Part shown: positions 51,726-54,088 of the stretch, one piece after another
Layout of the letters: each line of letters starts with the position of its first letter
Position numbering within the stretch: the first letter of the stretch is position 1
Assembly (NCBI RefSeq): GCF_026586625.1
Contig: NZ_JAODIW010000006.1
Span: 436,996 to 500,995 of the forward strand
DNA: 64,000 bases
From: Halobium salinum
Lineage (GTDB): Archaea; Halobacteriota; Halobacteria; Halobacteriales; Haloferacaceae
Direction of reading: 5' to 3'
Notes under the pieces: model-generated
Told to the model about the DNA's origin: nothing
What the model saw: the letters and a program-made list of their open reading frames with translations, nothing else
Databases searched by the model: none
Translations under genes and position numbers: made by a program

Positions 51726-51899
51726 ACCACGTAATCGTGCCCGCGGATTCCGATTAAACGTGTCGGCATCGGCCGAATCGGCCCGCTCGTGACGAATCTG
51801 TGGTTCGACGCCCGTCGAACCTTTGGGGAGAGTCTCGCCGACATCCAAGCCCGGCCCCCGCCCCGGAAGCTTCGAGACGGTGGGCCACGGACGGCCCCT

Positions 51900-52985
51900 A
51901 TGAACGACACGCTCGACCGCCCCGTCGTCGCGCTCGTGCTCGCCGGCGGCACCGGTACTCGGCTCTACCCGGCGAGTCGCTCGCACCGCCCGAAACAGTT
52001 CCTCTCGCTCGGAGACGCGGACGACCGCTCGCTCCTCTCCCGGACGGTCGCTCGCGCCGACTTCGCGGACGAGGTCGTCGTCAGCACCCGCCGGGCGTTC
52101 GCAGACGAAATCGAGAACCACGCCCCCGACGCCGAGGTGCTGGTCGAACCCGCCGCCAAGGACACCGGGCCGGCGCTTTCGTACGCCACGCATCGAATCG
52201 CCGAGCGCTATGCCGAGGACGGAGACGACGGCGCCGACCCCGTCGTCGTCGTCCTCCCGGCGGACCACCACGTCGCGGACCGACCCGAGACCGACGACGC
52301 CGGCGCCGGGGGCGTCGAGAACGGCCGGTTCTCGGAGGCGATGCTGACGGGCGCCCGCGTCGCGGCCGACACCGGCGCCCTCGTCGCCTTCGGCGTCGAA
52401 CCCACGCGCCCCGACCCCGGGTACGGCTACATCGAACCCGGCGACGACCGAGAGGGATACCACGACCTCGCGGCGTTCCACGAGAAGCCCGACCCCGAGA
52501 CGGCGGCCGAGTACGTCGACGCCGGCCACCTGTGGAACGCCGGTATCTTCGCGTGGACGGCGGAGTCGTTCCTCGAGGCCGCCCGCGACTCGCCGCTTCG
52601 CTCGCTGGTCCACGCCCTCGACTGGGGGGACACGGAGCGCGGCTTCGACGAAGTCGAGGAAGTGAGCGTCGACTACGCGGTGATGGAACGCGCCGAGAAC
52701 GCCGCCGTCGTCCCGGTCTCCTTCCGGTGGGACGACCTCGGCTCGTGGGACGCCTTGGAGCGGGTGCTCGGCGACGACGAAGCCGGAAACGCCGTCCTCG
52801 GCGAGGGGTTGACGGTCGACGCAGCCGACAACGTGGTCGCGAGCGACGACACGCACGTCTCGCTGGTCGGCGTCGAGGGGCTCTGTGTCGTCGCGTGGGA
52901 CGACCGCGTGCTCGTCGTCCCGAAAGACGAGGCCCAGCGCGTCCGAGAGGTCGTGGCGGCGTTGAAAGAAGGGGGACGGTTCTGA
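51900..52985 (+). CDS. Mannose-1-phosphate guanylyltransferase
   Basis: Makes GDP-mannose from GTP and mannose-1-phosphate for glycosylation of lipids and S-layer proteins. The 361-residue protein has the pyrophosphorylase start [25 protein letters not shown] (GGxGxRL and lysine), then [41 protein letters not shown] and LWNAGIFAW, in the family order. It lacks the isomerase domain of bifunctional GMP/PMI enzymes. It is divergent from mdh, with 174 bases between the starts. Confidence 0.92.
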
Positions 52986-53028
52986 GGGGGTCGAGGTGGT
53001 GACCGTTCGAGGGGACCGGTCGCACCGC

Positions 53029-53149
53029 CGCGTCAGCGATGCGACCAGCGACAAGCCGCTGGTCGTCGTTGCGCTCAGTCGTCCACACCAACCGCGTCAG
53101 CGAGACGGCTGCCGATAACCCGGCAGCCGTCGTTGCGCTCAGTCGTCCA
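53029..53149 (-). repeat. Tandem 64-base module with conserved flanks and different hairpins
   Basis: Two units with a 64-base period. Each has the same 11-base segment CGCGTCAGCGA (53029-53039 and 53093-53103) and the same 22-base segment (53064-53085 and 53128-53149). Between them are perfect but unrelated hairpins: GACCAGCG/CGCTGGTC (53043-53050 with 53057-53064) and GACGGCTGCC/GGCAGCCGTC (53104-53113 with 53122-53131). The 22-base segment of the proximal unit contains the stop codon of the membrane gene on the minus strand, so the module is that gene's 3' end plus a terminator, duplicated. Confidence 0.75.
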
Positions 53150-53861
53150 ACGGCGCCGCAGGCTCCGTGTCGTCACGCGAGCGCGGTCCGGCCGCAGAGG
53201 CGCGACCCATCCAGCCCTCGATGTTGTCGTGGACGTAGTCCTTCCCACCCCAGCCGAGGGCGACGCCGACGCCGATGGCGACGGCGGCCGCCAGCCCCCA
53301 GGCGAGCGCCTGTACCATCGTGTTGAGGAGCGTCACGTCGACGCCCATCGTGTCGAGGCCGATGACGAGGACGGTGAAGTAGAGGAACACGCGGACACCG
53401 GTAGCGAACGCCGACGTGTAGGCGGTCTCCGTCGCCGCACGGGTGCGCTCGATGGCGTCACCGACGAAGTCGGCGACGACGAACCCGAGCACGATGACGA
53501 GCAGGCCGGCGACGAACGCCGGGAGGTACGAGACGGCGGTCGCGAGCCACTCGGAGAGGATGGGGACGTCGAGCACGTCGGCGGCGGCGAGCAACGCCAG
53601 CGCGTAGACGAAGTACGCTGCGATGGTGCCGAACGTGTTCGAGACGGCCTTCTCCGTCCCACCGAGCACCGTCCCGAGCGGCGTCTTCAGCATCGCCCGG
53701 TCGACGTTCACACGGTCGACGACTCGGGTCACGACGGCCTTCACGCCGCGGCCGACCGCCCAGCCGATGAGCAGGACGAGCAGTGCACCGACGAGGTTCG
53801 GGACGAACGCGACCATCTCGGCGACGGTTGCCTCCAGGAAGGCGGGAATCTCGAGTTGCAT
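53139..53861 (-). CDS. Membrane protein with conserved TM-helix repeats (MscS-like)
   Basis: A 240-residue membrane protein related to the conserved-TM-helix family, some of whose members are joined to small-conductance mechanosensitive channels. Five helices are seen: FVPNLVGALLVLLIGWAVGRGVKAVV (with the typical GWxxGR motif), NTFGTIAAYFVYALALLAAADVL, YLPAFVAGLLVIVLGFVVADFV, GVRVFLYFTVLVIGLDTMGV, and NTMVQALAWGLAAAVAIGVGVALGWGGKDYV. The last Gly-rich helix and GGKDYV match the channel-lining end. The ATG at 53861 is chosen over two upstream ATGs because it starts MQLEIPAFLEATVAEM, close to helix 1. Confidence 0.82.
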   Translation of the reverse strand: MQLEIPAFLEATVAEMVAFVPNLVGALLVLLIGWAVGRGVKAVVTRVVDRVNVDRAMLKTPLGTVLGGTEKAVSNTFGTIAAYFVYALALLAAADVLDVPILSEWLATAVSYLPAFVAGLLVIVLGFVVADFVGDAIERTRAATETAYTSAFATGVRVFLYFTVLVIGLDTMGVDVTLLNTMVQALAWGLAAAVAIGVGVALGWGGKDYVHDNIEGWMGRASAAGPRSRDDTEPAAPLDD

Positions 53862-54088
53862 AGCTACCGGTTGCATGGCACGTGCTAGATGGCGACGAAC
53901 AGTCATCAGGGCCACAGTTTCTCCCGGTATCCCGGTTCCGGCGCACACACCAGGTGAGACCGAACTCGGTCGCTTTCCGCTGGTAATCGACCCGAGGCGA
54001 CTGGTCGGTCGGAGAGCGGAAGCGAACCCCGTCGGTCCCGCCTCGTCCCGCGCCGAGGAGTTGAGCCGCCCGCCGTCGACTGGAGTGT

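Follow-up and report, generated by a model that had tools for sequence, protein, structure and literature searches.

We found that two adjacent hairpins in a 64,000-nucleotide stretch of the genome of the haloarchaeon Halobium salinum (assembly GCF_026586625.1, contig NZ_JAODIW010000006.1, positions 436,996–500,995 of the forward strand; the whole stretch is referred to as the window) belong to a repeat family that is dispersed over the genome and placed directly after the stops of ordinary genes. The pair lies at 53,023–53,149, with the minus strand as the sense strand, behind a gene encoding a mechanosensitive (MS)-channel protein with a conserved transmembrane (TM) helix. The two units probably belong to a miniature mobile repeat that is non-autonomous, forms hairpins and inserts 3′ of stop codons with duplication of its target. 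The observations that speak for this, all made directly, are the dispersal of the family, its anchoring at gene ends, the covariation of its stems, a locus-specific direct repeat at the gene-proximal unit (unit 1) and a site that is array-free in one species and filled in its congeners.

A Hairpin Pair and Its Dispersed Family

On the plus strand, 53,028–53,085 and 53,092–53,149 are direct copies with 79% identity over 58 nt, placed at a spacing of 64 nt, in agreement with the two adjacent 64-base units described in the initial annotation of this DNA. They have in common a suffix of 22 identical bases (CGTCGTTGCGCTCAGTCGTCCA), as was then noted, and a prefix of 12 identical bases (CCGCGTCAGCGA) instead of the 11 given there. 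Also upheld is its statement that the stems, GACCAGCG/CGCTGGTC (8 bp) and GACGGCTGCC/GGCAGCCGTC (at least 10 bp), have unrelated sequences while each is perfectly self-complementary, a pattern that is far beyond chance. The proximal copy does lie at the stop codon of the TM-helix gene, yet it does not merely overlap it: the repeat core starts at the stop, and the functional strand is minus.

The 14-mer TGAGCGCAACGACG occurs 16 times in the 4.46-Mb H. salinum genome (G000) versus 0 times for its reversed control. A covariance model (R1) built from an alignment of 20 units gave at least 79 matches in this genome at E ≤ 1, at least 74 of them below E 0.005. The family comprises at least about 74 copies at 38 loci on six contigs, present singly or in arrays of up to five, which supports the earlier suggestion of a mobile palindromic repeat family; its flanks recur genome-wide, so they are not confined to the window locus. 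One match (L137) is weak and probably false. The repeat core of around 52 nt is without coding capacity and carries the conserved foot GCGC(A/C)ACG...TCGCTGACGC. Foot-to-foot spacing varies from 39 to 41 nt across units, hence no reading frame is conserved. A selenocysteine insertion sequence (SECIS) or readthrough function was considered and dropped, as the TGA-to-TGA spacing is not frame-conserved.

At 34 of the 38 loci, the stop codon of the upstream open reading frame (ORF) is where the array, or a leading unit of type B or C, has its start, always in the sense orientation, and L122 (..YA-TAG) is a 35th locus starting at a stop codon. The upstream ORFs were read in the coding frame, which is rich in GC at third codon positions (GC3 mostly 0.86–0.97). 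When 30 of them were compared with Pfam, 28 scored above the cut-off; the ORF upstream of L123 has an AAA domain just under the cut-off and a Rad50/SMC-like look, and that of L105 has no match. The host genes include those for FtsY, fumarase, UvrA-like, LeuA-like, MetE, glutamate synthase, PdxT, BCCT, MatE and MscS-like proteins and ABC transporters, and no function is common to these 30 ORFs.

Array starts are not uniform. Those of L115, L116, L124, L129 and L174 are composite (BA) elements, in which a type-B hairpin (GACTAGCCCGGAGCGACCGCG..) is joined by an invariant linker (GGAGGTGCGACTGAGCG) to a type-A unit. The leading type B reads GACGACTAG, CCCGGAGCGACCGCG...CGCCGTCGCGGAGGTGC, with a fixed linker to type A, and its TAG is the gene stop. 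These composite BA elements, too, sit at ..DD-TAG stops, and type-B stems are likewise variable. In L101, L123 and L134, a third kind of leading unit (GACTGACGCGGTCGC ... CACCGCGGCAG) stands between the gene stop and the first type-A unit. Although their genes differ, the second units of L103 and L107 carry the same extended linker (GACGACCACCGGGACTGAG), and their imperfect stems are alike; this is a trace of a co-mobilised flank or of gene conversion.

Conserved Pairing in Variable Stems

Comparison of 64 units gave a mean identity of 87–89% for the feet and of 54% for the stem arm, while 543 of 566 apical stem positions (96%) form Watson-Crick pairs, the remaining 23 being mismatched intermediates. 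Loops are short, and most are rich in pyrimidines (YYCRT-like). Pairing in the proposed structure reaches 85% in the 20-unit alignment versus 73.5 ± 1.3% in shuffled alignments, 53 cells are changed on both sides versus 21.9 ± 3.4, and covariation amounts to 0.318 versus 0.122 ± 0.016 (0/500 shuffles for each measure). When the partner columns are slid by 1–3 positions, no more than 51% is paired instead of 85%. The minimum free energy of the variable part is −17.7 kcal/mol, against −9.9 kcal/mol when halves from different units are joined.

Gene Ends as Presumed Target

Gene ends adjoining arrays encode ..DD in 24 of 30 cases (one of the 30 being a likely false match), compared with 5 of the 179 gene ends that lie elsewhere in the DNA examined. 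The DD-stop is older than the array and does not stem from the repeat: in many repeat-free genera, fumarase and the counterparts of the window gene have the ending ..DD-stop. We found that the linker following unit 1 resembles the end of its own gene, with a summed local score of 198 versus 162.2 ± 5.4 for permuted pairings (0/20,000) and a stop-aligned excess at positions −4, −5, −7, −8 and −11 (each p ≤ 0.013), whereas later linkers show no excess match to the gene end (p = 0.43). The signal is strong in arrays with a further unit (p < 5e-5) and weaker in the others (p = 0.02, n = 12). Clear repeats of the gene end are seen in L122 (TACGCGTAG twice), L136 (AGTACGGAGATTGA/AGTACGGGGACTGA), L109 (GAAGACTGA) and L125 (GCGGACGACT). 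Judged from sequence, these repeats would represent a target duplication of about 10 nt left by the most recent insertion, the one nearest to the gene, statistical in nature and decayed at many loci.

The layout of the window pair fits this scheme. TCA at 53,139–53,141 of the plus strand is the TGA stop of the TM-helix gene, directly after GACGAC, and the gene end TGGACGACTGA (..L-D-D-stop; 53,139–53,149, minus strand, as are all features of the pair) is the presumed insertion target and left copy of the presumed duplication. The core of unit 1 (53,085–53,138) consists of the foot GCGCAACGAC, a variable stem, a loop, the returning arm, the foot TCGCTGACGCGG and the tail TTGGTGT; its 5′ arm GGCTGCCG (53,121–53,128) pairs with the 3′ arm CGGCAGCC (53,107–53,114), and pairing reaches 53,131/53,104. 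It is followed by the linker TGGACGACTGA (53,075–53,085), an 11-bp direct repeat of 53,139–53,149, which would be the right copy of the gene end and the start of unit 2. The distal core of unit 2 (53,023–53,074) has the same feet and an unrelated stem with the arms GACCAGCG (53,057–53,064) and CGCTGGTC (53,043–53,050). In minus-strand order, the sequence thus runs GTTGGACGACTGA, GCGCAACGAC-GGCTGCCG-GGTTAT-CGGCAGCC-GTCTCGCTGACGCGGTTGGTGT on the side of unit 1 and continues as GGACGACTGA, GCGCAACGAC-GACCAGCG-GCTTGT-CGCTGGTC-GCATCGCTGACGCGGCGGTG on that of unit 2. The covariance model matches both, at 53,086–53,149 (65.6 bits, E 5e-14) and 53,018–53,085 (79.4 bits, E 2e-17). The flanks would be identical because they consist of the feet and the duplicated gene end, and the stems would differ because the two insertions, one after the other, were of different family members.

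The host gene occupies 53,139–53,948 of the minus strand (Pfam PF05552, E 4e-17), although its true start may be internal. The convergent neighbor, an ORF at 51,789–52,985 of the plus strand, has its stop about 37 nt past the array; a recognized motif makes its product a putative sugar-1-phosphate nucleotidyltransferase-like protein. Unit 2 and its downstream flank (53,018–53,046, minus strand) contain an alternative 13-bp hairpin, GGTCGCATCGCTG ACG CGGCGGTGCGACC, that competes with the family fold.

Orthologous Sites in Related Species

Related arrays were detected in three species (G066, G067 and G068) of a second genus (g34), and a model made from g34 units alone recovers the H. salinum family at E 2.6e-8. 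The g34 feet occur as GCGAC/GTCGC, GCGGC/GCCGC or ACGAC/GTCGT, i.e., with compensatory changes. In all three species fumC and gltB carry arrays, each at ..D-stop, and the stems differ among species yet still pair, so that pairing is kept at orthologous positions in relatives. H. salinum has arrays behind the same two genes (L106 at fumC and L124 at gltB). At the inositol monophosphatase gene end, arrays are present in G067 and G068, while G066 is array-free: there TCGGACGACTGA passes directly into the downstream sequence that the species share. A paralogue of the inositol-monophosphatase family in H. salinum (C2:252,848–253,621, L255) has one in-frame TAA within the matched frame, which marks either a pseudogene or an assembly error.

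The window gene's orthologues in other genera have the ending ..DD-stop and carry no repeats; Halomarina oriensis, which encodes a relative of the TM protein (67%) without the repeat, is too remote a species to be used as an empty site. Pattern and R2 scans of 392 genomes of the order gave nothing else convincing among the matches listed, and those R1 matches outside H. salinum and g34 that were examined fall within coding sequence or lack the architecture. Tandem repeats of 36 nt, GACGACTGACGCGGCGACGGCCAGCCGCG(A/G)AGGTGT, were seen at L219 (genome G073) and L218 (G077). Those of G073 (genus g3) form hairpins, the first of them starting at the stop of a DUF6149 gene that ends in ..DD, and may be distant kin, or a minimal version, of the element in another genus. 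Related hairpin arrays that start with GACGGAGCGACG.. and CCCCACGGCACC.. and do not sit on a GAC-stop (G066:C43:20,886–21,075, L231, and G068:C6:1,635,835, L239) may be further subfamilies. Viral contigs yielded two exact matches, both in coding-like sequence without a hairpin unit or array and judged to be chance, and plasmid records only weak chance matches. A search of the open-access PMC literature found no description of this hairpin family.

Proposed Mechanism and Alternative Explanations

Each unit has conserved feet, a 9-bp stem whose sequence is almost free, and a short loop rich in pyrimidines. If the units are mobile, they would insert directly 3′ of a stop codon, with preference for genes ending in GAC-GAC-stop. 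Insertion would duplicate about 10 nt of the gene end, stop included; as the last bases of the gene are copied, the protein would be left intact, and a fresh target would arise beside the intact coding sequence. Repeated insertion at this regenerated gene-proximal site would then build sense arrays of units with unrelated stems. Transposition would be the cause of the distribution, the insertion would be target-specific, and a trans-acting recombinase presumably reads the feet and loop, being indifferent to the stem sequence. The repeat would afterwards sit in the 3′ untranslated region (UTR), where an incidental effect on 3′-end formation or mRNA decay is possible.

Several points weigh against this interpretation. 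The comparison of array-free and filled sites rests on the g34 species, with none for any H. salinum array, and its right-hand copy is imperfect (GGACGAACTGAG versus GGACGACTGAG). Since fumC distances among G066, G067 and G068 are about equal, gain and loss of the array are indistinguishable, and precise loss via the flanking repeats could also produce the observed presence and absence. No direct repeats could be detected around later units. Some linkers are common to several loci (AGGTGCGACTGAGCG after type B, GACCACCGGGAC in L103 and L107), which means that some arrays move or convert as composites. Finally, no mobilizing enzyme was found in a search for the Y1 transposase family PF01797.

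The initial annotation had spoken of a duplicated terminator module, i.e., one terminator copied in tandem and then left to drift, which we consider highly improbable. The flanks are indeed identical at 64-nt spacing, but they are explained by the feet and the gene-end repeat; moreover, arm identity is 0.47 between adjacent units and 0.54 between random family pairs, so arrays were not made by tandem duplication, and the family is dispersed, with stem classes that recur at different loci (e.g., CGAGCACG in 7 units). The window hairpins also lack the run of T (U-tract) that accompanies the hairpin of an intrinsic terminator; the sole terminator-like match near the array has 5 pairs and lies outside both hairpins (52,933–52,947). 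An Rfam search of the window gave 0 matches above the gathering threshold. A selected 3′-UTR RNA module is a plausible but not a probable account: the hairpins would terminate transcription, block 3′-exonucleases or insulate convergent genes, a protein would bind the feet and loop, only stem length would matter, and any mobility would be secondary. It agrees with hairpins that are always sense and directly behind the stops of core genes, with fumC and gltB positions that are common to two genera and kept in three g34 species with pairing held despite stem change, and with the covarying g34 feet. In Haloferax volcanii, 503 termination sites were found to be preceded by hairpins, and the one structure put to the test ended 59% of transcripts (PMC7237163), so that by analogy a terminator role is possible. 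However, arrays occupy only around 38 loci, orthologues in most genera do without them, and the missing U-tract counts against such a module as well. In addition, G-U is not clearly favored over A-C in the stems (10 versus 5), so that selection on the sense RNA is not clearly indicated.

Perfect stems may also be a product of mutation in a neutral mobile repeat, if template switching during replication copies one arm onto the other so that stems diverge and pairing is restored; this too is conceivable, though somewhat doubtful. Mismatched intermediates are few despite an arm identity of 0.54, and template switching has been documented to create and maintain RNA hairpins with compensatory changes (PMC8794818). 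Hence selection of the structure, or its replacement as a block, as first suggested, is a reasonable reading that the data do not force. Arm correction should, however, erase the conserved A-C mismatch and bulge which the feet retain inside the same long hairpin and which argue for some selection, and stem length and loop type remain narrow. Either selection, acting on mobility or on an RNA function, or template switching (PMC8794818) may keep the pairing. Movement as folded single strands, in the manner of integron attC sites or of IS200/IS605 hairpins (repetitive extragenic palindromes, REP, with their REP-associated tyrosine transposases, RAYT), seems very unlikely. Conserved feet with a variable terminal hairpin after stops do resemble attC, and a hairpin with a foot resembles REP, but the R″/R′ boxes (RYYYAAC...GTTRRRY) are missing from the feet, GCGCAAC having G at the required Y, and the hosts are dispersed housekeeping genes instead of a cassette array. 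PF01797 is absent from the H. salinum genome, although present in five control genomes including that of Haloferax volcanii. The presumed target duplication also misfits IS605, as IS605-type elements of Haloquadratum are reported to make none (PMC3119063).

Likeness to Known Repeats and Implications

Mycobacterial interspersed repetitive units (MIRUs), for which a stop-codon target, DTGA, was reportedly described by Supply and colleagues in 1997, have a stop-codon seat and a sense orientation in common with the haloarchaeal units. By analogy of behavior, they are, together with the small mobile repeats (SMRs) of Haloquadratum, the nearest known systems (PMC12548453; PMC3119063). MIRUs are short non-coding units, occur in sense, in tandem or singly, are apparently mobile, and have a gene-edge seat that little disturbs expression (PMC12548453); the haloarchaeal unit differs by the lack of an ORF, by a single hairpin with a hypervariable stem behind terminal stops and by the duplication of about 10 nt. 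SMRs, palindrome-associated transposable elements (PATEs) and haloarchaeal miniature inverted-repeat transposable elements (MITEs) are likewise very short, transposase-free mobile repeats of inverted-repeat or palindromic structure, and SMR-A has a strong target preference (PMC3119063). Yet SMRs (80–110 bp) have other mobile elements as their targets and make no target duplication, PATEs are IS605-related, and none of these groups is reported at stop codons or with variable stems (PMC3119063). REP sequences and bacterial interspersed mosaic elements (BIMEs) are likewise short palindromes scattered over a genome, each having a conserved foot and a hairpin, and often occur in clusters outside genes; in contrast, H. 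salinum has no Y1 transposase, and its units are all head-to-tail in sense instead of alternating, with stems that are not conserved. The Haloferax termination hairpins are haloarchaeal RNA 3′-end hairpins able to end transcription, but they form no repeat family, and one structure was tested (PMC7237163). In the broad sense of MITE- or SMR-like elements, the present family has dispersed non-coding copies, presence and absence at orthologous sites and a statistical target duplication; an autonomous parent transposon, with which a strict MITE shares its termini, was not seen in H. salinum, where transposases of PF01797 were searched for.

It is possible, though we regard it as rather unlikely, that these repeats constitute an undescribed haloarchaeal class of hairpins, in which a recombinase reads the feet and loop of the folded strand whatever the stem sequence, stops are safe harbors through duplication of the terminal codons, and the 3′ UTRs of core genes are rewritten repeatedly at the same positions in different genera. 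If the proposed insertion behind stop codons is true, a mobile repeat spreads cheaply in a gene-dense archaeal genome by settling after the stop and copying the gene end. The family would then offer dozens of natural replicates for the effects of 3′-UTR hairpins in archaea, where termination and 3′-end processing are still being worked out, and its perfect, fast-changing stems would provide a clean test case of selection versus template-switch mutation.
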